A stretch of 34,020 bases of DNA from a virus: IMG/VR virus record IMGVR_UViG_3300017967_000097, positions 1-34,020 of that record. One strand, 5' to 3'. Numbering within the stretch: position 1 is the stretch's first letter; the number at the start of each line of letters is the position of its first letter. The notes under the pieces are model-generated. The model was not told the DNA's origin. It worked only from the letters and a program-made list of their open reading frames with translations, and did not search any database. Shown here piece by piece: positions 4,202 through 32,714 of the stretch. The translations under genes were made by a program, and so were the position numbers.

Positions 4202-7200
4202 TTATGTTGATACAACTACTCTAACTTCTAAATCAAATGGATTATATCCATATGTAAATGTTTTATCATATGCGTTAACAGGATTTTCTTGAGTATAAAG
4301 AATTGTACCCGTTGACTTTTGTATTAAGTAAACTCGATGGATTATCAAAGTACTTTGGCCAACATATGAACCCCCTTGTACAAAACTTACATTTCTAACT
4401 TGGATTGTGTTTGATGGTAACATACTTCCCTTTGTGGTTGATATACCATTAACAATCATATCAAATGATGCGCCTGCAACTCTTGTTAGTTTTTTCCAAT
4501 CAAGTCCGTCCCAATCTGGGTCTAATAAATATACATGCGTTCCACCATAAATACTATATGGTTGTGAAAGTAACCTTGAAATAATCAATGGTTCGTTCTG
4601 AGGCGCTGGTCTTAACACAATACCAGTTGATGTCTTAGGTTTAAACGAAAGTGGATTTAACACCTTAAACTCAGTTGCTTTTGTAATTACCGAAGTATTC
4701 TTGCGTTTTTTGTTTTTAAGATTCACGGATTGTAATACATCATCTGGTGTCTTTTTAACATTGCCAGATGAAGAAGTACCCCCAGAGGTTCCAATTTGTG
4801 TACCTGAGTCCGAAATTGTTTGTGTAGAGTAGACCAATACATTTGGGTCAACCGTTGTTATTTCAACAACAGGCCCACCATCCGGTGTGTCGGTTGAGTC
4901 AGTTGTAAGTGAATCACTTGATATTCTACATCCGTTATAATATAAATTTTCAAGAGCCAATGGTAGTCTATCGTCCTGACCTTCCCACCATTCCATTGAT
5001 GATGAACTTGGAAGTTTTAAACTTGCAGATATGGACGATGTATAGAAGTATTTTGGAACTTTATAAATTTTAGAACTTCTATGATTTAAAACCGTAGACC
5101 CAGTTGGTGAATACTGCCAATATCCATTTGGTACATTTATATATGTTGAAGAAGACACACAAGTAGGATTTGGATTATTTGTATATATAACCTTCTCCTG
5201 ATAGGTCGATGATGTGTACTCATATTCAGCGGATACTGCTGATGAACCACTTGTATTGGGTGCGTATGATGATGTATCAATTCTAATAATTCTATCGGTA
5301 ATTCTATCGGTAATTTGATATGTTTTATCACCACTACCATCATTAAAAGAAATGTTTCCAAACTGGTCAACATCTGGGTGCCAATTTGGTTCGCCTGTTT
5401 TAAGTAGAATGTATTCACTACTCTCATTATAGGATGCGACACTCGAAGATTCGAAATCAAGTCTAAGCTGAAGGTCAAGGTCGCCTAATACTGCGGGGTC
5501 TATACCATTGTTTATTGTAAGTGGATTTCCACTTAAATCTATACTAAATGCCCCACCTGCGTATGTAAGGGTCCCCGAACCCGTTGAACTACCTGCAAAT
5601 ATATTTGTATTAGCACCAGGGAAAGTTGCGTCATTTAGTTTACAAATAATATTAACAGGTCTAGCGTCATAATATGGGTTAGTAAGTGTATGTGGTGGTG
5701 ATTCATACCCCCATGTACTTATATTAAAGTTAAGAGTAGAATCTCCATCGCTGATTATACCCGAACTTGAAACCGAACTTGTGTAACTAATTGTAGTTGT
5801 TATTGATGAAGTTACTGCATTTCCATTGATATCCGCATTTGTTATAAGAGTGCTTGGTCCATCAAACGATGAACTATAATAAAATCTTGCGGTTGACCCA
5901 CTACTATATGCAGCGGGTGTAAACTCAAATAATGGTTTAGTGGGATGTTGGTATGTTATATTATACACCTGACTATTATACAACATATAGTCTATACTGC
6001 CAGATGGTGGTAGTGAAGACCCAGTTGCCCCATTTGCACTTGAGGTAGTACAAGTCACACTTGAAGTTAGTGTTGGTATTAAATACTTGTATGTTGATGG
6101 TAAGTAATCATATAAATCAATTTCTGCAGGGTCGTAGTCATTTCGAGATGCGGTTAATTCATGATTAATCATAGATATTGACCCATCGTACATATGTCGT
6201 GAAATTGTTATATCACGATTTCTGCGATATTTATTTCTTTCAAAAATATGTGGTTCAATCAAGATACCCTTATGCCAATCAACACGAGCTGGTAAGAGTT
6301 GTTTGATTTGTTCAAATACGGACATATCATATCTTGATAACATATCTAAAATCAAATCAATTGCAGTACCACTTGTGTACTTTTGAAAATAATTCTTTGC
6401 TCTAAATTTAACTAATGGGTAATCATCGTTATATCTTTTATCGGGGTCACCTACCCAATCATCTGCCTCAAAGTAACCCTCAGAATTGTATATGTCAAAG
6501 TTTACCGTATCGGTTGTTGTAAAGTAGGTTCCTAATAAATTTGAATCAACTGGTGCATAATCAAACTCACTTAATTCATATGATTTGTCAGGATTCAATT
6601 GTCCCTTTAATGACGTGGACTCAATACGAATCTTATTATTCATTAAGTTAAGTGCACCCATGGATGGTACTGTTACAAACTGAGTGTCAACTTCTCCAAC
6701 CAATTGGTTGGATGTTATATTTGTTAATGATGCGGATAATACTAAACCACTATCAGATTGTGTGATTCTTTGATTTGGATGTGCTGATGAAATATAACTT
6801 GATGTAGTAGCCACCTGACTATCAGGGAATATTCTAAACATCAATTTATCAAATGATGTATCAATATCCAAATCAGTAGTATTATCATCGCTAAAGTATG
6901 CTTCAGTATTTCTTGCGTGTTCTGTTACAATCTCGTTTGTAATTGAGTCACGATAATATCTAACTTCTTGAATACTTGCAGTTTCATATGAGTTAACATT
7001 TGAATCTGCAGTTGGTCCAGGAACTTGTAATGTTCCTGTTGAGGTCCAAACTGAATTAAATGTAGAGTTTGGGCTAACTAATGATGCCGTTGGATTTGCG
7101 AGAAGATTCCCCCAATCATCAACCCAACCCGCTTGAATGTCAATACTACCAGAGGTTAATACAAAAACAGCATCTCTTCTTAATTTGTATGGTACATATG

Positions 7201-12146: not shown

Positions 12147-14060
12147 TTAAAATAACGATACCACTTTACCACGAATATCAGTATCTAAATATTTCACTTC
12201 AAAACAGGTTGGGTCTTTGGGTGGGTATATAATACCATTACGAGTTGCGTTTTTAATATCGTATTTGTTTGATGAATAGTTACCATCAAATTTATTTACA
12301 ATTTGCAAACCACCATTACCATCCTTGTCAGGCCTTACAACAGTTTGTACACCATCTATCTTGTCTAATAATACATAAATATCAGATAGTATAATTGGTT
12401 TGTTAATTCCCATCATCTCAATTCTAAAATACTTTTTAAGAGCATCGATACATTTTAGAAGCACTTCGTTTGAATTGTAATTTGGAAGAACAACGATTTC
12501 AAAATCAACTCCAACATTTACTATATATGCGTTTTTAATATTTACGGCATCGGTCAAGATACGATAGTAAGATAAATAGTTTTGTAAATTTTGTTTAGTC
12601 GCTGGATTTAGATTTTTTAAATTTTTGTTTTCATCGTATCCAAGAACATAGAAATTAATGGCCAATGGATTTGGAATTGGGTCTGGCCCATCGTCCAACA
12701 AAGTATTGATTTGAAAATCAGGAGCCGCGTATGCTTTTGCCACCGACCCAAATTGTGGTGGTAGTGCGTATGCTCTTAATAGATAGTCCTCTTTGGTTAC
12801 TGCTCTATTTTGTGCTCTAAAATATCCGAGTGCGTTATTACGAACTTCTTCAATTTCCTCTTCATATTTACCACCACCAGCAGCTACTTCGTTTGTTACC
12901 GCAATGGATGATTGTACAATATTAAATACATCGGTCACTAAGTTTGTAGAAGGTGTCTCTATCACCCGTTCCACTATGTTTGTTAAATCCTGTGATTGTA
13001 CATTATCAACAACACCATTACCAATACGATAAGTTACAGTCAATGTGGTATTAGATGGCGCAACACCATATGTCTTTGTATACATAAAGTTAGATGGGTC
13101 AATACCTTGGTCAAGATTTCCACTTGCACCATATAATGCAGAACCCACATTATCAGGATTAGGTAAAATTTCTTCATCTGAATTTTGAGATACACCTGAC
13201 CCGAATTGTATATCAATTGCACCATCATCGGTAATACGAGTTATAAATCGTTTTGGTACTTTTTTTAATTTAAGTAACGATGGTGTTTCATTTGCATATG
13301 CAGACATTGCAATTGAGTAATCCGTTGTATTAGGTAATTCTTCAAATACAGTATCCTGTGCAAGGTAATCTACCTTTGTCCACTCGTCACCATCATCATC
13401 CATAATTTTTATTACATCAATCAAACCATCTTCATCTTCAAGTCGTATCTTATCATATGGTTTTGGTGAACCGAATGTAAATGTTTTTGTCTTCTCGGTT
13501 CCACTAACTGCTTTTACATATTTTTTTAACAAATAGTAAACTGGTTCGTTTGTTGTTTCATCAATTTGATAAACTGATACTTCGGTTGAGTCAAATGATG
13601 ATGAGAATCCAAATCTAACTTTATTAATGGTTGAGAACTCAACATCACCATTTGATGTAGAACCAACTTTCATATTTTCTGCAATTGTTAATGCGTAGTC
13701 CCAGTTTGGTTTTACATTGTCACCACTACCCATAGAAGGTATAATTTGATAAACAGTTAAATTTGTAGTGGCTGGAACAAGTAACTTTGGTTTATATCCC
13801 AACGATTGTGCGATAGTAAAAATGTTTTTCTTTTCCTGTGCGCCTTCTAATATAGATTCTCTTAATTGAACATCTGTGTAATAAGAGAGAACATCACCAA
13901 CATACGAAGCCATTTCCATAAACATCATACCAGGAGATGATTCGTTAAAATCATTGTAGGTTTGTGGGAAATAGTTTTTTGTAAAATCAATTAGGTTTTT
14001 ACGAATATCCGCAAAATCCTTACCAATTAAGTTTACTTCTTTTTTTATTTTATCTGCCAT
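12147..14060 (-). CDS. Baseplate wedge protein gp6-like (Baseplate_J family)
   Basis: The 637-aa product has the hallmarks of T4 gp6/Baseplate_J proteins. The N-terminal helix region reads DFADIRKNLIDFTKNYFPQT, then NDFNESSPGMMFMEMASYVG, DVLSYYTDVQLRES and AQSLGYKP. The central region carries YRIGNGVVDNV and the family signature NRAVTKEDYLLRAYALP. The C-terminal part has YVLGYDENKNL and IVNVGVDFEIVVLPNYN. In T4, gp6 forms the dimeric ring that ties the six baseplate wedges together and rearranges at sheath contraction. T4 gp6 is 660 aa, close to this length. It directly follows gp25 (9 bases apart), the usual T4-like order. GAGGA before the ATG is a good Shine-Dalgarno. Confidence 0.9.
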   Translation of the reverse strand: MADKIKKEVNLIGKDFADIRKNLIDFTKNYFPQTYNDFNESSPGMMFMEMASYVGDVLSYYTDVQLRESILEGAQEKKNIFTIAQSLGYKPKLLVPATTNLTVYQIIPSMGSGDNVKPNWDYALTIAENMKVGSTSNGDVEFSTINKVRFGFSSSFDSTEVSVYQIDETTNEPVYYLLKKYVKAVSGTEKTKTFTFGSPKPYDKIRLEDEDGLIDVIKIMDDDGDEWTKVDYLAQDTVFEELPNTTDYSIAMSAYANETPSLLKLKKVPKRFITRITDDGAIDIQFGSGVSQNSDEEILPNPDNVGSALYGASGNLDQGIDPSNFMYTKTYGVAPSNTTLTVTYRIGNGVVDNVQSQDLTNIVERVIETPSTNLVTDVFNIVQSSIAVTNEVAAGGGKYEEEIEEVRNNALGYFRAQNRAVTKEDYLLRAYALPPQFGSVAKAYAAPDFQINTLLDDGPDPIPNPLAINFYVLGYDENKNLKNLNPATKQNLQNYLSYYRILTDAVNIKNAYIVNVGVDFEIVVLPNYNSNEVLLKCIDALKKYFRIEMMGINKPIILSDIYVLLDKIDGVQTVVRPDKDGNGGLQIVNKFDGNYSSNKYDIKNATRNGIIYPPKDPTCFEVKYLDTDIRGKVVSLF

Positions 14061-20535: not shown

Positions 20536-21465
20536 TCAAGCATTCCCCATACTATGCCCTAATGTGTGTATACCATAATTGGACAAATAATCCAACACGG
20601 TCAGCTCTTTCATCTTAGCTTCTACCTCAATATCGAGAGAATGACCATATGTGTTAATCTCAGAGTAAATGTAATCTGAGTGTGCTTGGGGTTTTACACC
20701 TTCTTCTTCCAATGTTCGAGATTCAGAATAATGAACCAATGGTTTGTAATCACCCCAAGTCGATATAGCCAACTCAAGTGCATCTTGTTCAGATAATCCA
20801 CCAGTATTAAACTTGTGGTGGTGATAATCAAATGTAATTGGAATGCCGATGTGTTCGTGTAGGTACATAAGGTCTTTCACCGAATACATACTTGCTTTAT
20901 CATCGTTCTCTACGACCAATCGAGATTGTACCGACATTGGTAGTCGTTTGAAGTTATCAATGAAACGATTCATTGCAGATAACTTATCACCATACACACC
21001 ATTACAATGGATGTTGATTGGATTCTGATAACTCCGTTCCAATCCCATAAGGTCGAATATTTCACCATGAAGAGAAAGGTCATTAATTGTGTTCTTAACG
21101 ACTTTCTCGTTAGGAGAAACTAAGACATTGAATGGACCGGGATGTGATGTTATTCGTTGCCCATATGATTTAGCAAGAGTTCCTGCACCTTTAAGTATAT
21201 TACTAAATCTTTCATAGTCAGGCATATCGGACAAATTAAACTCACTTGCCCAAGGTACAATGTCAGATGACATACGAAATAAATTGAAACCATTCTTGTG
21301 ATTCCACTTAATAATTTCAACAAGGTCTTTTACATTTTGTAGAGCGAGGTCAGATGACTTACTAATACCCTCCTTGAGGAATGTCTTTCTAATCATACTA
21401 CGATTGGTAGTAATCTTATTTTTACGAAGACTCATGTTGATACAACAGTATCCTAAATTTGTCAT
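20536..21465 (-). CDS. uvsE: UV-damage endonuclease UvdE/UvsE
   Basis: The product (309 aa from the chosen start) has the TIM-barrel pattern of UV damage endonucleases: MTNLGYCCINMSLR at the start, FNLFRMSSDIVPWASEF, SYGQRITSHPGPFNVL, LVVENDDKASMYSV (metal-binding Glu-Asn), IPITFDYHHHKFN and VHYSESR. These enzymes nick DNA 5' of pyrimidine dimers and abasic sites, giving a photolyase-independent repair route. I chose the ATG at 21465. The frame extends 16 codons upstream, but that part is translated from a terminator hairpin and lies before the predicted transcript start. The same artefact occurs before the 54-aa gene. UvdE is a plausible counterpart of T4 DenV, protecting phage DNA from sunlight in surface water. 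A promoter inside the upstream hairpin drives it. Confidence 0.92.
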   Translation of the reverse strand: MTNLGYCCINMSLRKNKITTNRSMIRKTFLKEGISKSSDLALQNVKDLVEIIKWNHKNGFNLFRMSSDIVPWASEFNLSDMPDYERFSNILKGAGTLAKSYGQRITSHPGPFNVLVSPNEKVVKNTINDLSLHGEIFDLMGLERSYQNPINIHCNGVYGDKLSAMNRFIDNFKRLPMSVQSRLVVENDDKASMYSVKDLMYLHEHIGIPITFDYHHHKFNTGGLSEQDALELAISTWGDYKPLVHYSESRTLEEEGVKPQAHSDYIYSEINTYGHSLDIEVEAKMKELTVLDYLSNYGIHTLGHSMGNA

Positions 21466-21482
21466 AATTAAATCTTTATACC

Positions 21483-21540
21483 TAAAGATAATAAAAAAGG
21501 GGGACTTATCCAAGCCCCCCTATGTTAAGTTTATGTTAAA
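21483..21540 (-). promoter_or_regulatory. Composite promoter of uvdE with duplicated TTAACA box
   Basis: Reading the minus strand: TTTAACA (21540-21534), 5 bases, TTAACAT (21528-21522), 7 bases, CTTG (21514-21511), exactly 20 bases, TATCTTTA (21490-21483). CTTG and TATCTTTA match the Bacteroidota -33 and -7 boxes with one change each. The TTAACA pair is 11 bases apart, one helical turn. The -33 box lies in the stem of the dnaK terminator, and the upstream box overlaps the dnaK stop codon. The same architecture recurs at 28249, 30424 and 30641. Confidence 0.65.
21493..21520 (-). terminator. Rho-independent terminator of dnaK, overlapping the uvdE promoter
   Basis: On the minus strand GGGGGGCTT (21520-21512) pairs with AAGTCCCCC (21507-21499) around a GGAT loop, giving a 9-bp stem with one G-U pair, followed by six T (21498-21493). 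It lies 15 bases after the dnaK stop. A near-copy ends the 254-aa gene at 30651-30678. Confidence 0.88.
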
Positions 21541-23383
21541 TTTCTTCGTGAGGAATATCTTCCGTACTATTACCACTTGCATCTGGTGGTACTTGGTATA
21601 TTCTTGATGTAATTTTATTCCAAGATTCTTCAAGAACCTCTCTTGTCTTACGAATCATTTCAACATCCCTACTTTCCAAATGAGGTTTAACATCATTTAT
21701 CATTTGTGTAACACTTGACTTCTCCTCATCTGATAACTTATCACCCAATGTCTCAAGATTTTTTTCCAATCCATAAACATAACCATCGGTAGAGTTTATA
21801 TAATCAATATCCTCTCTTCGTTTTGCATCATCCTCTCGATTCTTCTCAGCTTCATCACGCATTCTTTGAATATCATCATCAGTCAAACCTGTGCCTGATT
21901 TAATTGTAATATCCTTACTCTGACCCGTTCCGAGGTCTTTAGCCGTTACATTTAAAATACCATTTGCATCTATGTCAAGTGTAACCTCAACTTGAGGTAT
22001 TCCCTTAGGTGCCATTGGTATACCATTTAAATTAAAAAATCCAAGAGTTCTATTGTCTTTAGCTAATGGTCTATCCCCTTGTAAGATATGAATATCTAAT
22101 GATTGTTGATTGTCAGCCACCGTTGAAAAGTTCTGAGATTTACGAACTGGTATGGTAGTGTTTGATTCTATGATAGTTGCCATTACACCACCAATTGTTT
22201 CAATCCCCAATCCAAGTGGTGTTACATCCAATAACAAAACATCGGTAACATCACCACCAAGAATACCACCTTGAATAGCAGCTCCAAGAGCAACTACTTC
22301 ATCTGGGTTCACTCCCTTACTTGGTGTCTTACCAAAATAATCTTTTACCGCGTCTTGAACAATTGGTATACGAGTAGAACCCCCAACAAGAATAACTTCA
22401 TCAATCTCACTAATGTCAATACCGGCATCTTGTACGGCTTGTTTACATGGTTTGATACATCGGTCAATTAAATGAGATGTCATTCTATCAAACTCAGCAC
22501 GAGATAAATTTCTATCAAAATGGATTGGACCACTTGAATTACTTGTAATGTATGGCAAATTAATTGTAGTCGTAGTTGCTGAAGAAAGTTCAATCTTAGC
22601 TTTTTCAGCGGACTCTCTAACTCGTTGTAACGCCAACTCATCATTTTTTAAGTCAATGTTTGATTGTCCTTTAATTGCATCTAAAATCCAATTTGTTAAA
22701 CAATCATCAAAGTTATCACCACCAAGTTGAGTATCTCCATTGGTAGACAAAACTTCAAATACACCATCTCCTAATTCAAGGATTGAAATATCAAATGTAC
22801 CACCACCTAAATCAAAAACAGCCACCTTAGAATCCGAATCTTTTTTATCCAGACCATATGCCAATGCAGCCGCAGTGGGTTCGTTTACAATACGCAAAAC
22901 TTCCAATCCTGCAATCTCACCGGCCTCTTTAGTTGCCTGTCGTTGTGAATCGTTGAAATATGCCGGTACTGTTATAACGGCCTTGGTAACTTCCTCCCCA
23001 AGATATTCTTCAGCAGACCTCCTAATATTTTGAAGGACCATGGCTGAAATTTCTTGTGGGATATAATCTCTATCATTTGCTCTGATATACACTTTGTCAC
23101 CATCTCCCTTAACAACATCATATGTAACATTCAAATGTTCTTTATTTAGTTCAGAGTATCTCTGACCAATAAATCGTTTTACCGAGTATAATGTACTTTT
23201 AGGATTTGTTATAGCAACTCGTTTAGCCGCAGCCCCAACTTTTATTTCACCTTTATCAAATGAAACGATTGAGGGGGTCGTTCGGTTCCCCTCTTGATTA
23301 ATTATAACTTGTGGTTCACCACCTTCAACTACTGCGATACACGAGTTGGTAGTACCTAAGTCAATTCCAATAATTTTAGACAT
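21536..23383 (-). CDS. dnaK: Hsp70 chaperone DnaK
   Basis: The 615-aa product (E. coli 638) is a complete DnaK. The ATPase domain has [10 protein letters not shown], then [31 protein letters not shown] and [14 protein letters not shown]. The interdomain linker is [13 protein letters not shown]. The substrate domain has [23 protein letters not shown] and [20 protein letters not shown] helical lid runs to residue about 595, and the tail ends IPHEEI, not the usual EEVD-like end. I set the start at [10 protein letters not shown] (23383); a longer frame adds 16 residues from the intergenic terminator. Full-length DnaK is rare in phages. No DnaJ or GrpE is visible here, so it may use host cochaperones. 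Hsp20 lies upstream, separated by a terminator-like hairpin that may lower readthrough. Confidence 0.97.
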
Positions 23384-23405
23384 ATTATTTCTTTTTAATA
23401 TAAGT

Positions 23406-23436
23406 ATGAAAATGGGTGGAATAAAACCCACCCATT
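23406..23436 (-). terminator. Terminator-like hairpin between hsp20 and dnaK
   Basis: On the minus strand AATGGGTGG (23436-23428) pairs perfectly with CCACCCATT (23419-23411) around an 8-base loop, and TTTC follows. The T run is short, so it is probably a partial terminator or mRNA-end stabiliser. It would let some transcription reach dnaK, since no clear promoter exists between the hairpin and the dnaK ATG. Confidence 0.6.
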
Positions 23437-23452
23437 AATCACACATTCATAA

Positions 23453-23800
23453 CTACTTAACTTTTACATCAATCTTTTTTGCTTTTCTATCTTCATACTT
23501 AGGAATAGTAACGGAGAGGATACCATCCTTAGCGATTGCAGATGTTTGGTTAATGTCAAACGCATCGTGAATTTTGTATCTCTTATGGAATGACCGACTT
23601 TCCTTCTCAGCCTTAACTTGTAGCGTTCGGTCTTCAACCGTCACCTCAATATCTTTGTTGGACAAACCTGGAACTTCGAACTCCATAGTCAATACATCAT
23701 CCTTTAGATACGCAGTGTGGTCTGAAATTCTTTGCGAATCCCAACCACCAGAAACCATGTCTGAAATCATGGTATGAAATGTTGAATCAAATAGTGTCAT
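23453..23800 (-). CDS. Small heat-shock protein Hsp20
   Basis: The 115-aa product is an alpha-crystallin-type small heat-shock protein. It has a short N-terminal arm, then DDVLTMEFEVPGLSNKDIEV, TLQVKAEKESRSFHKRYKIH and the family signature AKDGILSVTIPK (A-x3-G-x-L) near residues 90-101. The C-terminal extension is short and ends KKIDVKVK, with a weak IxV-type motif. Small heat-shock proteins hold unfolding proteins until DnaK can refold them, and dnaK follows directly. T4-like cyanophages often carry Hsp20, usually without DnaK. The ATG has a strong Shine-Dalgarno (AAAAGGAG) 6 bases upstream, which a leader hairpin can cover (23809-23837). An E. coli-like promoter with two palindromes precedes it. 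Confidence 0.95.
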   Translation of the reverse strand: MTLFDSTFHTMISDMVSGGWDSQRISDHTAYLKDDVLTMEFEVPGLSNKDIEVTVEDRTLQVKAEKESRSFHKRYKIHDAFDINQTSAIAKDGILSVTIPKYEDRKAKKIDVKVK

Positions 23801-26948: not shown

Positions 26949-28238
26949 TTAGAAAGGATTAGAGATATCTTCGGTTTCAATGTTGAACAAGTCCTCATCA
27001 GAAGGGCGTTCACCCAAGAACTTTTGAATGTATTGTTTCATGTAAACTCGTTCTGATTGAGCACCACCACTTTGGTCAAACAAAGGATAGATAGTAATCT
27101 CAGCAGCCTCAGCCAAAGTAAACCCATCGTAGAGTAGAGAACCAATCTCAACTGCGGTACGAGTCGAAAGTGCGTTGGTTAACTTTGGAGTCTCTGACAT
27201 TAAATCATCACGAGTCATCGAAGTAATCTCAGCAACATTATTAAGGGTGTCAATATCAACTGAAGGATACATCATCTGAAGAAGTGAAGTCTCCTCTGAC
27301 TGATTCAGAGTATCCATTTCAATAACCGTGAATCGGTCAAGGATAGCTCGGTCAAGGGCTCGAGTGGCCGTGTATTCATTACCAATGTTGGCGGAAGCGA
27401 TGAAGGAAACACCATCAGCAACATTGACAACAGGAGCGTCAGACGCTTCATCCAAACGGAGGTATCGTTGACCTTGGTCAAGAACTGACATCAAGATGTT
27501 GTGAGCCTCAGGGTGAGCTCGTGTCAACTCATCAAGGATGATGACTGTGTTTGGAGTTTGAATCGCTTTGACAAACGGACTGGCGTTGAAAACCGTACCT
27601 TTCTTGGATTCAAACTGAGTGTTCCCAATCAAAGTGGTTCGTGGGTCTTGAGTAGCACCCAAGTTAATGATAAAGGTTTCGTAACCCTCAAGTGAATTTG
27701 CAGCCGCTTTAGCCGCCATGGTCTTACCACAACCGGCAGGACCAGTCATCATAATGTTCTTACCACGAATGATGTTACGAACCAAGTATTTCCACTTGAG
27801 AGGATTCATGAACAACATCTTAGGTTTCAACCCTTCAGAAGTTTCGTGAATAAACTTCAAGACATCATCACCCATCTCAGGAGCGGAAACGGCGGGTGGT
27901 GTGTTTGGTTCATACATCATGGAAACAAGACCACCATTTGGAGCGGTGAAGTTACCAACTGCCTCAGGGTTTTCTTCCATTTTTTCAATCGGAACACGAG
28001 TGTGACCAATCTCACCATTTTTCAAAGTACCAACCACACGAACTTTCCAACCCCATTTAGATGGGTTGTTTGCCGCGGCTCGAGCCCGCTTGTAAAGAGA
28101 AGAACCCTTCTCATTCAATTCCTCAATAAGGAAGTTAACTCCATTGGAGTCTTGGAACATCAAAAGACCATCAACCTCGACAATCTTTCCAAAAACTGAT
28201 TTTTGTGCTTTCATACGATTACTATTATTATTTCTCAT
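26949..28238 (-). CDS. MoxR-type AAA+ ATPase
   Basis: The product (429 aa from 28238) has a substrate/adaptor N-terminal part and a MoxR/CbbQ-like AAA+ module. Walker A is GPAGCGKT near residues 166-173, Walker B is VIILDELTRAHP near 233, and a sensor and arginine-finger region reads FIASANIGNEYTATRALDRA followed by ILDRF. MoxR ATPases work with VWA proteins as chaperones that insert cofactors or remodel complexes (RavA-ViaA, NorQ-NorD, CbbQ-CbbO), and a VWA gene lies immediately upstream. Start choice is open. A GTG at 28271 is unlikely, and ATGs at 28238 (GAG 5 bases before) and 28214 are possible. The predicted transcript start near 28243 would leave about 5 or 29 bases of leader. The gene has its own TTAACA-class promoter. 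Confidence 0.88.
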   Translation of the reverse strand: MRNNNSNRMKAQKSVFGKIVEVDGLLMFQDSNGVNFLIEELNEKGSSLYKRARAAANNPSKWGWKVRVVGTLKNGEIGHTRVPIEKMEENPEAVGNFTAPNGGLVSMMYEPNTPPAVSAPEMGDDVLKFIHETSEGLKPKMLFMNPLKWKYLVRNIIRGKNIMMTGPAGCGKTMAAKAAANSLEGYETFIINLGATQDPRTTLIGNTQFESKKGTVFNASPFVKAIQTPNTVIILDELTRAHPEAHNILMSVLDQGQRYLRLDEASDAPVVNVADGVSFIASANIGNEYTATRALDRAILDRFTVIEMDTLNQSEETSLLQMMYPSVDIDTLNNVAEITSMTRDDLMSETPKLTNALSTRTAVEIGSLLYDGFTLAEAAEITIYPLFDQSGGAQSERVYMKQYIQKFLGERPSDEDLFNIETEDISNPF

Positions 28239-28248
28239 TATTACTCTG

Positions 28249-28305
28249 TAAAGATAGTGATTTAGGTTCACAACGCCAAATTTCTAATGTTAACAAATTG
28301 TTAAA
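28249..28305 (-). promoter_or_regulatory. TTAACA-class promoter of the MoxR gene
   Basis: On the minus strand TTTAACA (28305-28299), 5 bases, TTAACAT (28293-28287), 6 bases, TTTG (28280-28277), 20 bases, TATCTTTA (28256-28249). A 30-base block (28277-28306) is identical except for one base to that in the VWA promoter. The first box overlaps the end of the VWA gene. Confidence 0.68.
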
Positions 28306-30403
28306 TATTTACTTCGAACTTTTTATTTAAGGTCTTAGCCAGTAGGGTGACATTCTCAACATCAATGAACTCAGCATCCTTACCATACATCTCACGGAAT
28401 GAATCACTTCCCCAACCATATCCATCTGAGATGAAGTAGGAAAGAATCTTGACTCCGGCTTGACGAATCTTTTTAACTTGGTCGGCTGTGTGTTTCACTG
28501 CGTATGGTCCACCGTAACTAATTTCGTTATTATCAAACCCAGGGTAACCATCGGAGAAGTTGATTAAGTAAGTATCTTCTCCATTCTTAGTTTGAGTTAG
28601 TTGTTTTAAAATAGCTTCGTAACACAATCCCTCAGGAGTAGTACCATCATAATTGATGTACTTGAAGAGTTGTTGAATCTTTGAGAACTTGTCTTTTCGA
28701 GAATCATAAGCCACCATCATAAGTGGCTGACACCCAGTTCCATGTGCGTAGTATACACCTCGATAAGAAATCACAACCTTAATGTTTTCAGTCATTGAAG
28801 CTGCTTTAGCGATGGCGACTGCGGCCGTTTGAGTTGATGACCACTTCTTACCACTCATAGAAGAACTTGCGTCAATCGAGATGTGGAGAAGAACTGGCGT
28901 TGATTTAGAAACTAATGTTTGTTCAAAGATGTTGAAGTTACCAAACCCAATCTCGTGAATCATGCGACCACTCAATTTACCACTTTTCATTCGTGGTGTA
29001 GTTAAACTTCTTTCCTCATTACGAGTCTTCAACTTCTTACCAAGTAGTGTACCCAACTGAATACCCTTTTTCACATTGGTCTCATTTCGGTCAATGCTCC
29101 ATGATGAAGTACACAACATACCAACCATACCAGCGTCAATTAATCCTTTTGTTAGATTATTGATAACATAGGTTTGAACCCCTTGTGACTGATGTCTCCA
29201 ATGACCTTGGTCAAAACCTTTACCTGTCACCTCACTTCGAATATCAGCTTTGTCAAGTTGTTCAATTTTATTTTTATCACCTTTGGAGATTTTTTTCTTC
29301 TTAATCTCACCCTCCATAAACTCATTTTGTTTTTCGATGGCGTTCTCCAACATTTTTCGTTGGCGGTCTGAAAGTGGTTCATACTCACCACCGGCACCAT
29401 TTTGATTTGATGAAACATCACCATCACCACTTGAGTCAATTTGTTCATCAGACTCATTACCATCATTTGAATTACTTGGAGAAGATTGACCTTGACCCTC
29501 ACCACCCATTGGACTACCATTGGTGGGTGTGGTTTCCATGTCACCACTCATTGGAGCGTTACCATTTTCTTCACCTTCTTGAGGATTACCCTCATCATTT
29601 GTAGATGATTCACCTTGATTAACCTCAGCGAGATTTTTTTCAACAATCATAAGAATCTGACCAGCCACATCAAGTGCATCCCACGATGTTTTAAGTCGAG
29701 AGATGTTACGAAGGTCAAGTACATTCCAAATCTCACGAAGACCCTTGACGGCGTTAAGGTCACGATTTTCATTCGTCAAGTTGATGATACGGAACATATA
29801 AGAATCCCAATCTTCATTTCGTTTCTCAGAAGACTGAAGACCTTTGTCAATCACTTTTGAGTGGAAGTATTTATCATACATAGACTGGTAGTAACCACGA
29901 TAGCCAGGAGCCGTAGTGTAAATGTGGTTATCGATTCTTCGGTCTTCAACATAGTTGAGTAACGACTTGAGGTTATTAGAGATGACCATAGAAACTTGGT
30001 CAACCTCACATTGGTAACGATTAGCTAACCACTCTTTATCAATAGTGTGTGGTAGGTAACCACTTTTCATTTGAGTCAAGGTATCGAAATCAGTTAATGC
30101 GATGTGAGACCCCTCATGAAGAGCCAGACCAACTACGGGGTCAAACTCTTTGTCATCTAATTTAGCAGAGATAACCACTTGGTTACCATCGGTATAAGAA
30201 TCCTCACCACGACCATCAAAGGTCACGGGGATTGACTTACCTGTCACAATGTTTACGAAGTTACCAATGCTTCGTTTGTAAGACATCAACCTCATAAGGT
30301 CGGATGACTTTCGTTCAGTTTTACTCATGTCGACTGAATCGTCTTCAAAGATTGAAGAGTCGAGCCAGAACGAAGAATAGGACATTTGGGTTTTATTAGA
30401 CAT
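28301..30403 (-). CDS. Metallopeptidase-like protein with C-terminal VWA (MIDAS) domain
   Basis: The 700-aa product has three parts. The N-terminal region has a zinc-peptidase-like HEGSH at 96-100 (LALHEGSHIAL) and a later NYVEDRRIDNHIY that may supply the third ligand, the pattern of DUF2201/CobT-like proteins. Residues about 263-345 are a Gly/Ser/Asp/Glu-rich linker. The C-terminal VWA domain has a full MIDAS: DASSSMSG (Asp511, Ser513, Ser515), the Thr pair in YDGTTPEG near 588 and NFSDG near 618. VWA-MIDAS proteins of this kind partner MoxR ATPases, and that gene follows 62 bases downstream. An intact HExxH suggests possible proteolysis, although related domains are often inactive. The start is the ATG at 30403 with AAGAG close upstream. 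Confidence 0.85.
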   Translation of the reverse strand: MSNKTQMSYSSFWLDSSIFEDDSVDMSKTERKSSDLMRLMSYKRSIGNFVNIVTGKSIPVTFDGRGEDSYTDGNQVVISAKLDDKEFDPVVGLALHEGSHIALTDFDTLTQMKSGYLPHTIDKEWLANRYQCEVDQVSMVISNNLKSLLNYVEDRRIDNHIYTTAPGYRGYYQSMYDKYFHSKVIDKGLQSSEKRNEDWDSYMFRIINLTNENRDLNAVKGLREIWNVLDLRNISRLKTSWDALDVAGQILMIVEKNLAEVNQGESSTNDEGNPQEGEENGNAPMSGDMETTPTNGSPMGGEGQGQSSPSNSNDGNESDEQIDSSGDGDVSSNQNGAGGEYEPLSDRQRKMLENAIEKQNEFMEGEIKKKKISKGDKNKIEQLDKADIRSEVTGKGFDQGHWRHQSQGVQTYVINNLTKGLIDAGMVGMLCTSSWSIDRNETNVKKGIQLGTLLGKKLKTRNEERSLTTPRMKSGKLSGRMIHEIGFGNFNIFEQTLVSKSTPVLLHISIDASSSMSGKKWSSTQTAAVAIAKAASMTENIKVVISYRGVYYAHGTGCQPLMMVAYDSRKDKFSKIQQLFKYINYDGTTPEGLCYEAILKQLTQTKNGEDTYLINFSDGYPGFDNNEISYGGPYAVKHTADQVKKIRQAGVKILSYFISDGYGWGSDSFREMYGKDAEFIDVENVTLLAKTLNKKFEVNI

Positions 30404-30707: not shown

Positions 30708-31472
30708 TTAATGTTGTATGATTTTGCGTGTAGACCCATCATCATACAATAAAATCATAATTTCATCTTCCTTAATAGCATCATACTTTCGACCCATCAT
30801 ATCATAGATACCAATCAGTTTCGGTTGGGGGTTGTTAAACTGAATAGTATTCATTGTAGTGGAATCACAATAGATGTCGAAATCGATTCCATAAAAAGTA
30901 TCCTGACTCAAACACTTATTCCACCATTGACAGTAAACTTCAAACTTACCTTCCCAAGGGAATGTGTAATCCATTCTATAACCAGAATCAATGTGTATAT
31001 CGTTTCCAACATTATCGTAGACATACCAATACACTTTAATACACTTTTCATCTTGGTTAGTGAGTTTGTTGGCTTCAAAGATATGTCGTTTACAATCCTG
31101 CATTCCATACGACCATTTTGCGTTTTGGAATGTTACCTGTTGAAGATAGAACGACCAAGTGGTATCACATTTATCACACTTATCGATAGCGCGTAATCGT
31201 AACTTAAACTCACCCTTCAGATTAATCTCAAATTCTGCAATGTTACTATTGTACGCAAATGTATCAGTCAACAATTGACCTTTAGTATTACGATAAGTAA
31301 ACATCCAAAAGAATTCAGTACACGAATCCCATTCCAATCCTTTAGCGTAATACTTGTAGTAATTACGATTTTGGACATTTTGTGTGACATTGACTTTAGA
31401 CCAATCACACTTTGCGTTTGCGGTTGTCATCAAGGAGGCCAAAGACAACAACCCTACTATGTATTTTTTCAT
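30708..31472 (-). CDS. Secreted protein with type IX secretion sorting-domain-like C-terminus
   Basis: The 254-aa product has a clear signal peptide (MKKYIVGLLSLASLMTTANA, probable cut before Lys21). The body carries several paired cysteines (KCDKCDTTW, YGMQDCKRHIF, CQWWNKCLSQ) and many Trp/Tyr, like an extracellular beta-rich protein. The last 38 residues (PKLIGIYDMMGRKYDAI, then IMILLYDDGSTRKII) closely follow the type A sorting domain of Bacteroidetes type IX cargo: xLxGIYDxxGRxV...YDDGxxxKxI. Such cargo crosses the outer membrane and is usually anchored or released at the surface. The gene overlaps the DUF2061 gene by ATGA and ends in a terminator. A phage could use it to change the host surface, for example against superinfection, but the role is unknown. 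Confidence 0.72.
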   Translation of the reverse strand: MKKYIVGLLSLASLMTTANAKCDWSKVNVTQNVQNRNYYKYYAKGLEWDSCTEFFWMFTYRNTKGQLLTDTFAYNSNIAEFEINLKGEFKLRLRAIDKCDKCDTTWSFYLQQVTFQNAKWSYGMQDCKRHIFEANKLTNQDEKCIKVYWYVYDNVGNDIHIDSGYRMDYTFPWEGKFEVYCQWWNKCLSQDTFYGIDFDIYCDSTTMNTIQFNNPQPKLIGIYDMMGRKYDAIKEDEIMILLYDDGSTRKIIQH

Positions 31473-31678
31473 TTGTTTTTAATTCCATATGGTATCCATT
31501 TATACCAAGCTCGTTCGTGAACAAAATATAAAACTGATTTAGTTATTACTTCAACTCCACCAATAACCAACCCCGTATTAAGTTCACCTGTAATTAACCA
31601 ACCTAAAAAGATGGTATCAAGTGTACCTATTATTCTCCAAGAAATTGTTTTTGCAATATGTCGTTTATAACTTACCAT
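31469..31678 (-). CDS. DUF2061 membrane protein
   Basis: The 69-aa product fits DUF2061 end to end: MVSYKRHIAKTISWRIIGTL, DTIFLGWLITGELNTG, VIGGVEVITKSVLYFVHERA and a WYKWIPYG end. It has two short membrane segments with a conserved Lys/Arg start and HERAW. Family members often lie beside sulfate-assimilation genes (cysC, cysN), and a CysC-like kinase is two genes away here. It overlaps the nucleotidyltransferase gene by 14 bases and the secreted-protein gene by 4. The biochemical role is unknown. Confidence 0.88.
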   Translation of the reverse strand: MVSYKRHIAKTISWRIIGTLDTIFLGWLITGELNTGLVIGGVEVITKSVLYFVHERAWYKWIPYGIKNK

Positions 31679-32015
31679 CGTTCCTCATTTGTTCACGAAT
31701 CTTGGTAGCTGATATTTCAGATACCTCTTGTGGTGGGATGTGTTCAATTACTTGATACCCAACACCACGACCATAGTTAACTGAATCAATATCAGGTATA
31801 ATCATTAGTTTAATCTTACCCTGTTTAATTAAGTCGTAATGAATTTTGGATAAATTCTTATACACTTGGTCTGCGGTCCATGGATTCTTAATATCGGTAG
31901 GAACATCTCTAATTGCAAGTAGTACTCGATTACCCTCATTTAGTTGTTGGTCAATCAACCATTGATGACCATCGTGCCAAGGTTGCCACCTACCTATATA
32001 CAAAGAGTATTTCAT
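31665..32015 (-). CDS. Small HIGH-family nucleotidyltransferase
   Basis: The 116-aa product has the nucleotidyltransferase signature HDGH in YIGRWQPWHDGHQWLID, the same layout as GRFQPFHxGH in NadM-type adenylyltransferases. A later ISATKIREQM is the ISxTxIR motif. The segment IIPDIDSVNYGRGVGYQVIE is characteristic of a group of short phage and marine bacterial enzymes. The family transfers AMP or CMP to small phosphorylated substrates (NMN, glycerol-3-phosphate, pantetheine phosphate). At 116 aa it is shorter than most but contains both motifs. The CysC-like gene overlaps it by 26 bases, so the two probably act in one pathway. The substrate cannot be named. Confidence 0.78.
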   Translation of the reverse strand: MKYSLYIGRWQPWHDGHQWLIDQQLNEGNRVLLAIRDVPTDIKNPWTADQVYKNLSKIHYDLIKQGKIKLMIIPDIDSVNYGRGVGYQVIEHIPPQEVSEISATKIREQMRNDGKL

Positions 32016-32424
32016 TCAACGCCTCCAGTATTGATTTTTTCGTGGTGTCAATTTTAACATCAACATCATTAATCTCCATATCATCCGTAAAGAAGTTTTC
32101 ACGACCTCGTGTTTCGGTGGTATGGACATAATAAAATTGTACATCTAAATCACGAAGTTCATCTCTTGTTTCCGAATAGGGTGATACCATAGACACCACT
32201 ACATCGAATCCTTTGTGATTTAGAAACCTTACAATTGAATTTGCATTACGAAGATTTTGCAATCTCCCTTCCTTGGAATAATCTTTGTTATCAAAGATGT
32301 GTCTCAAATCGTCACCATCAATGTGATGAACCACACGATGATTATTTAATTCCAAGTGTTCTTTTAACGATTTTGCCAATGTGGTCTTTCCAGCACCAGG
32401 TTGGCCATATAAAAAATATATCAT
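31990..32424 (-). CDS. CysC-like (adenylylsulfate kinase-like) P-loop kinase
   Basis: From the ATG at 32424 the product is 144 aa. It has a P-loop GQPGAGKTTLAKSL, then DGDDLRHIF and DYSKEGRLQNLRNA, and VSMVSPYSETRDEL, matching the pattern of APS kinases (DGDxLR, FSxxDR, ISPxxxxR). APS kinases turn adenylyl sulfate into PAPS, the sulfate donor. The enzyme here is shorter than CysC (about 200 aa) and has SKEGR where CysC has SxxDR, so the substrate may differ. A GTG codon at 32454 could extend it by 10 residues, but that overlaps the 94-aa gene, and the ATG 5 bases after that stop is more natural. Only a weak AAAG precedes it. Confidence 0.8.
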   Translation of the reverse strand: MIYFLYGQPGAGKTTLAKSLKEHLELNNHRVVHHIDGDDLRHIFDNKDYSKEGRLQNLRNANSIVRFLNHKGFDVVVSMVSPYSETRDELRDLDVQFYYVHTTETRGRENFFTDDMEINDVDVKIDTTKKSILEALNEILFVYR

Positions 32425-32429
32425 GTTCT

Positions 32430-32714
32430 TTAAAAAGGTGGTTCTAACAACCACTCTTTAATTTCTTCTTTTACCGAATCATCTTTTTGTTCCACCCAAA
32501 CAAGTTGCCACTCATCTCGTAGATATCTTCTATGATGTTCCAACAACTCATCACCTCTATCAAGGTAAGTAACAATACCTTTCAGAACTGCAAAGGTCTT
32601 TTTCTTTTCGACCTGACTCCATTTAGAGTTCTCTATAAGTTGGTACATCACCAACACGATTTCAGCTGGTGATTTATTTAACCATAGTTTCTTTATGTAG
32701 TCTTTTTTATTCAT
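32430..32714 (-). CDS. 94-aa helical protein of unknown function
   Basis: The 94-aa product is helical and charged (MNKKDYIKKLWLNKSPAEIV, LVMYQLIENSKWSQVEKKKT, DELLEHHRRYLRDEWQLVWV). It is the first gene of the operon that continues with the CysC-like kinase (5 bases to the next start), and begins 10 bases after tRNA-Gly. It probably shares a transcript with the tRNA array. No family is recognised. Confidence 0.5.
   Translation of the reverse strand: MNKKDYIKKLWLNKSPAEIVLVMYQLIENSKWSQVEKKKTFAVLKGIVTYLDRGDELLEHHRRYLRDEWQLVWVEQKDDSVKEEIKEWLLEPPF

Follow-up and report, generated by a model that had tools for sequence, protein, structure and literature searches.

The window, by which we mean the whole stretch of DNA that was analysed, corresponds to a 34,020-base IMG/VR virus record, and the gene under study, hereafter the tagged gene, thus belongs to a phage genome. 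Its reading frame opens with ATG and specifies 254 amino acids (Table 1). The product starts with MKKYIVGLLSLASLMTTANA, followed by KC, which we read by eye as a Sec-type signal peptide whose n, h, and c regions are KK at the N-terminus, a run of hydrophobic residues, and an end of the form ANA/K. The peptide has no lipobox. The product closes with PKLIGIYDMMGRKYDAIKEDEIMILLYDDGSTRKIIQH, an exact instance of the pattern GIYDxxGR...YDDGxxxKxI. Both features had been proposed in an earlier, sequence-only reading of this DNA, and both were borne out: the signal peptide by these N-terminal features together with a modelled helix at residues 3-15, and the C-terminal pattern by its exact presence and by its recurrence above chance, as seen in 48 viral loci and with a hidden Markov model (HMM) built from bacterial tails only (both discussed below).

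Table 1. Features of the tagged gene and its surroundings in the window, with the evidence for each.
Feature	Position	Strand	Evidence
MoxR/CobS-like AAA ATPase	26949-28271	(-)	gene pair with the MIDAS-motif protein, 26949..30403
MIDAS-motif protein, VWA-like (by eye)	28301-30403	(-)	pair partner of the AAA ATPase
Predicted exported phage protein with short T9SS-type C-terminal tag, 254 aa	30708..31472	(-)	ORF; 29-member alignment; tail HMM
Putative short-form C-terminal T9SS sorting signal (three-stranded; residues 216-254)	30711..30827	(-)	tail searches, HMMs, model
Tandem pair of Ig/PKD-like beta domains (residues ~21-112 and ~113-204)	30861..31412	(-)	AlphaFold strands, Foldseek, weak Pfam PKD
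Sec signal peptide, residues about 1-20 (MKKYIVGLLSLASLMTTANA)	31413..31472	(-)	by eye; modelled helix 3-15
DUF2061 membrane protein	31469..31678	(-)	Pfam PF09834, E 1.8e-22
NMNAT/cytidylyltransferase-like enzyme	31665..32015	(-)	PF01467, E 2.4e-4; phrog_10255
CysC-like P-loop kinase	31990..32454	(-)	PF01583, E 4.3e-16

Homologues of the tagged protein on viral contigs share approximately 28-40% identity with it, with the addition of one sister (L001) at 96%. Across a 29-member alignment of this family (A6), seven cysteines are invariant (C22, C51, C99, C102, C127, C144, and C187), which suggests disulfides formed in the periplasm, and the tail is strongly conserved, with G227 and K250 invariant and R228 retained in at least 90% of members. 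AlphaFold2, run on this alignment (mean pLDDT 79.7, pTM 0.46), predicted two beta domains followed by a C-terminal three-stranded element, the strands of which (residues 219-223, 238-243, and 248-253) lie in a block with a pLDDT of about 78-89. Foldseek matched the model to generic tandem Ig/FnIII proteins, and Pfam PKD was weakly matched in four of seven family members. Searches of PHROGs and PADLOC returned no match for the tagged protein, no PDB chain matched the tail profile, and among GenBank phages both the full protein and the tail consensus were unmatched, one homologue giving chance-level matches only. Weak NCBIfam matches to Shiga-toxin B were obtained with some homologues (best 0.0011) and with none in the window protein; by judgement, we set this similarity aside as a likely leader-peptide resemblance.

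The top Foldseek matches were Ig-like domains of the lambda tail tip and fibre, and LamG fibre-like genes stand beside some relatives of the tagged gene, as might be expected if the protein were virion-associated and its tail a structural domain rather than an export signal. We regard that explanation as highly improbable, given that the family carries a signal peptide and the seven invariant cysteines, and that its tail is common to hundreds of bacterial proteins.

The tail behaves as a module. A tail-only search of viral contigs recovered 48 loci (some near-duplicates), in all 48 of which the tail ends the reading frame; 34 encode homologues of the window protein, while 14 have unrelated bodies, two representatives of which carry GEVED, CUB, fn3, or GBD_T9SS_assoc domains. 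When compared as profiles, the tails of the homologue set and those of the unrelated-body set aligned over 39 columns with 98.7% probability, and an N-terminal hydrophobic stretch was present in 46 of 47 tail-bearing phage proteins. The pair of window genes encoding an AAA ATPase and a MIDAS-motif protein is conserved beside tagged genes in L001, L082, L084, and L086, and in the last three it directly adjoins tagged genes that are unrelated to the window's. As the same gene pair is found beside unrelated tagged proteins, these loci present a comparable genomic slot, in which the cargo differs and the tail is the same. The tail HMM was silent in the nearest three phages searched (Microcystis phage Mel-JY01, Flavobacterium phage immuto, and one uncultured phage).

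Another protein family with the same short T9SS-type tail is encoded at no fewer than 78 additional viral loci (L191-L270), most of them on 30-95 kb contigs; its members are about 620-1030 amino acids long and have GCMDxxAxNYNxxANxDDGSC-type repeats. The tagged genes of L191 and L228 have an ATGA overlap with a gene for a beta-barrel-like protein of 358-365 amino acids, and a peptidase-like gene lies near the repeat-family tagged gene of L228.

The sequence-only reading had attributed the C-terminus to the type IX secretion system (T9SS), and had proposed a search with TIGR04183-type models as a check on that assignment. The check failed: neither TIGR04183 nor PF18962 matched the tagged protein or any of seven aligned family members, and among 15 tail proteins put to the TIGR04183/PF18962 test, sub-threshold matches were seen in 2/15 and 1/15 (0.14 and 0.1). 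Although the earlier reading would have counted such a failure against the tag, it is not decisive; the models are silent because they describe a long signal of about 72 positions (72 for TIGR04183), whereas the window tail is short, at about 39-43 residues. The tail resembles type A C-terminal domains (CTDs) of the kind described by TIGR04183/PF18962 in its YDxxGR motif B region, its C-terminal position, and its last-strand lysine, which supplies the conserved basic residue of motif E, and the phage-tail HMM matches long CTDs in bacterial genomes. It differs from them in length (39 versus about 72 residues), in scoring below the cut-off, and in the model, where three strands replace the seven-stranded Ig-like CTD of type A. 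Motif D (GxY) is missing from the window tail, which has [IL]Y[DS]DG in its place; several phage tails with unrelated bodies have a glycine ahead of the strand. A profile comparison between the phage tails and 30 long CTDs of one metagenome-assembled genome (MAG) aligned the motif-B region only, and weakly (33% probability), and no conclusion here is drawn from it.

A phage-tail profile run blind over 296 genomes, from the phylum of a Bacteroidetes MAG, gave 26 matches, of which 22 fell in the motif-B region of long T9SS CTDs, at a distance of 61-73 amino acids from the stop. The remaining four were short-form tails located at the stop, including one on a Bacteroidetes MAG homologue of the window protein and another on a secreted enzyme that looks GH16-like by eye and is encoded in a chromosomal context. 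On a Bacteroidetes MAG contig (L012:5640-7789), a homologue of the window protein (5998-6909) sits between two fragments of a rimO-like gene (by eye) that lacks its middle part, an arrangement that reflects either a chimeric assembly or a real insertion.

Within one Bacteroidota order, short tails were found in 72 of 196 genomes, with at least 966 matches, a median of 12.5 per tail-positive genome, and a highest count of at least 36; the tail-positive genomes are mostly 0.8-2 Mb in size. With one exception, the bacterial tails that were extracted have the same pattern no more than 50 residues from the stop. This order is presumably Flavobacteriales with endosymbionts, because it includes genomes of 0.3-0.6 Mb without SprA. 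In the set G480-G636, where short tails reach at least 36 per genome of 1-2 Mb, annotation based on TIGR04183/PF18962 would probably miss them. The T9SS translocon gene sprA (TIGR04189) was present in 69 of 72 tail-positive genomes versus 92 of 124 others (Fisher p 7e-5, a value to be read as a guide only, as the genomes are related), and long CTDs were found in all eight of the tail-rich genomes tested (25-64 each).

An HMM built from 29 bacterial tails only, and searched against 1,280 proteins together with reversed decoys, matched the window protein with 43.4 bits (E 1.2e-12), subject to the caution that these bacterial tails had originally been found through the phage profile. All of its matches up to E 10 were to tagged proteins, with no reversed decoy and no other window protein among them. 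In addition, 8 of the 36 tail-carrying phage records contain a second, separate gene that scores above the TIGR04183 cut-off. The six of these long-tag genes that were read (L146-L151, encoding about 580-650 amino acids) have canonical C-terminal domains, one product being beta-helix-like and five being related to one another and cohesin-like (by eye).

The failure of the curated T9SS models, together with the missing canonical GxY of motif D, could also be accounted for if the resemblance of the tail were convergent and the tagged protein only periplasmic. We consider this very unlikely in view of the score obtained with the bacteria-only HMM, the presence of SprA in nearly all tail-positive genomes, and the canonical T9SS cargo in related phages. 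Judged from its sequence, the tail is a copy of the short-form signal carried by T9SS-positive Bacteroidota with small genomes, and the tagged gene very probably encodes phage cargo for the host T9SS, a degree of confidence that we attach to export only. What stands of the original claim of T9SS export is therefore its substance, carried by a short tail shared with T9SS-positive bacteria and by the cargo of related phages, and what did not stand is the expected match to a TIGR04183-type model. A Bacteroidota host is likely for the window phage, the baseplate gene of which (12147-14060) matches the baseplate wedge of Flavobacterium phage immuto at 40% and also has a match in Microcystis phage Mel-JY01 at 51%.

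Short CTDs have been described in Prevotella intermedia, which has 48 of them, each of 43-55 residues; typical predictions give them three strands that correspond to strands 3, 6, and 7 of long CTDs, and have them docking to PorV as long CTDs do, and both cleavage and glycosylation of short-CTD cargo were observed (PMC11969387). Set against that published description, the window tail is alike in being a C-terminal signal of about 40-55 residues with three predicted strands on signal-peptide proteins, and in having a motif-B-like loop with a glycine and then a basic residue, as well as the conserved basic motif E. It is unlike the P. intermedia signals in having [IL]Y[DS]DG instead of the GxY of motif D, in belonging to a phage gene, and in that the bacterial relatives found here are apparently in another order. 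P. intermedia was described as the sole species reported with both long and short CTDs (PMC11969387); the genomes searched here suggest that it is not alone. In P. gingivalis, HBP35 depends on the final 22 residues of its CTD to be translocated to the surface (PMC3120885).

Phage-encoded T9SS cargo itself is already known from Cryophage (Bellas et al. 2020), in which recognised type A sorting domains are borne by an endoglucanase, a GH39 protein, and a PA14 protein (PMC7468147). The window phage is like Cryophage in encoding putative T9SS cargo that would use the host system, and in that the cargo is variable; unlike the type A domains of Cryophage, the tag described here is short, is missed by curated models, and is attached to an Ig/PKD protein family. 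New here are the occurrence of the short form in phages, the large numbers in which small-genome bacteria carry it, and the failure of standard models to see it. No earlier account of phage short CTDs came to light in our literature search, which was incomplete.

Beside the tagged gene lies a cassette of four overlapping genes, encoding a 94-amino-acid protein, a CysC-like kinase, an NMNAT-like nucleotidyltransferase, and, last, a DUF2061 protein. The kinase scores below the apsK equivalog cut-off (TIGR00455, 58.8 bits versus 138.7). The sequence-only reading had held that the tagged gene is translationally coupled to this CysC-like cassette, and had taken this to suggest that the two modify the surface jointly. 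The coupling calls for one correction: the start of the tagged gene has an ATGA overlap with the stop of the DUF2061 gene, the last of the cassette, and none with the kinase gene itself. A joint function was rejected on synteny: the cassette adjoins the tagged gene in the window and L001 only, being absent from that position at all 27 other family loci, and in L001 an extra gene stands between them. This gene (L001:4576-5004) lies between those for DUF2061 and the tagged protein, encodes a hot-dog thioesterase-like product of 142 amino acids (by eye), and again shows an ATGA overlap.

Comparison of the window with L001 gave a dS of 0.22 for the tagged gene versus about 0.75 each for the DUF2061 and nucleotidyltransferase genes (0.74-1.13 across the VWA-like, AAA, DUF2061, and nucleotidyltransferase genes), and an identity at four-fold sites of 90% for the tagged gene versus 47% for the kinase gene. 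Because its divergence from L001 is much the lower by dS and at four-fold sites, the tagged gene appears to move independently of the cassette, and it has probably been exchanged recently between the phage lineages of the window and L001. Its dN of 0.017, against a dS of 0.22, indicates that it is under purifying selection. Elsewhere in the window (20536-23800) are UV-damage-endonuclease-like, DnaK-like, and small-heat-shock-like genes (by eye), the first two of which have relatives in L072 and L068.

We infer both T9SS-dependent export and a role at the cell surface. The tagged protein would be exported by Sec and would fold in the periplasm, after which the T9SS translocon and a PorV-type shuttle would recognise its tail through the YDxxGR motif-B-like loop and the basic residue of the last strand. 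The host T9SS would then release the protein or display it at the outer surface, where it would most likely alter the binding targets available to other phages or surfaces. Because the tail matches a compact form of the Bacteroidota label for surface export, the phage probably covers or modifies the exterior of the cell that it infects. Of the 27 other family loci, 11 have an SGNH/GDSL hydrolase gene no more than three genes away, and LamG-type fibre-like genes are near some; such neighbours fit a role in a receptor or surface-modification module.

What the protein would do once exported is a matter of more tentative choice. Our leading guess, to which we give rather less than an even chance, is superinfection exclusion, in which the displayed protein would mask or bind either the phage receptor or the lectin-type tips that competing phages carry. 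A phage-made protein destined for the surface, with the hydrolase and fibre-like neighbours just described, would suit such a role, and a precedent exists in the llp gene of phage T5, which encodes a lipoprotein beside the receptor-binding gene. The likeness to Llp-type exclusion lipoproteins is that of a phage-made outer-membrane protein, in possible function only; Llp takes a different export route as a lipoprotein, and we know of no sequence relation between proteins of that type and the window protein. Competition or superinfection exclusion has likewise been proposed for the variable T9SS cargo of Cryophage (PMC7468147). However, the tagged protein has no homology to known exclusion proteins and, as noted, no PADLOC match, the window gene does not adjoin fibre genes, and nothing specific favours exclusion above other surface roles. 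Display of the Ig/PKD domains might instead alter the adhesion, aggregation, or carbohydrate binding of infected cells, and thereby help virions to spread or to persist on particles. This possibility, which also presupposes export and which we think somewhat unlikely, is consistent with the tandem Ig/FnIII fold, with the biofilm scaffold RbmA among the Foldseek matches, and with the adhesive-type domains (F5/8, CUB, GEVED, and MAM) on unrelated tagged phage proteins, but the resemblance to Ig-like proteins is of a generic kind (identity of about 8-12%, with a low TM-score) and no ligand site was identified in the tagged protein.

Taken more broadly, we consider the chances evenly balanced that the short three-strand T9SS signal, unseen by curated models, ranks among the major export tags of small-genome Bacteroidota, and that their phages use it widely, setting interchangeable cargo behind a tail that stays constant, to rewrite the surfaces of infected cells. 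If this is true, then (i) the T9SS secretomes of abundant small-genome Bacteroidota would be larger than current counts show, since the short tag escapes standard models, and (ii) phages of these hosts would commonly send proteins to the surface of the infected cell by means of the host's own machine. A natural signal of approximately 39 amino acids would also offer a compact tool for the study of minimal T9SS recognition.
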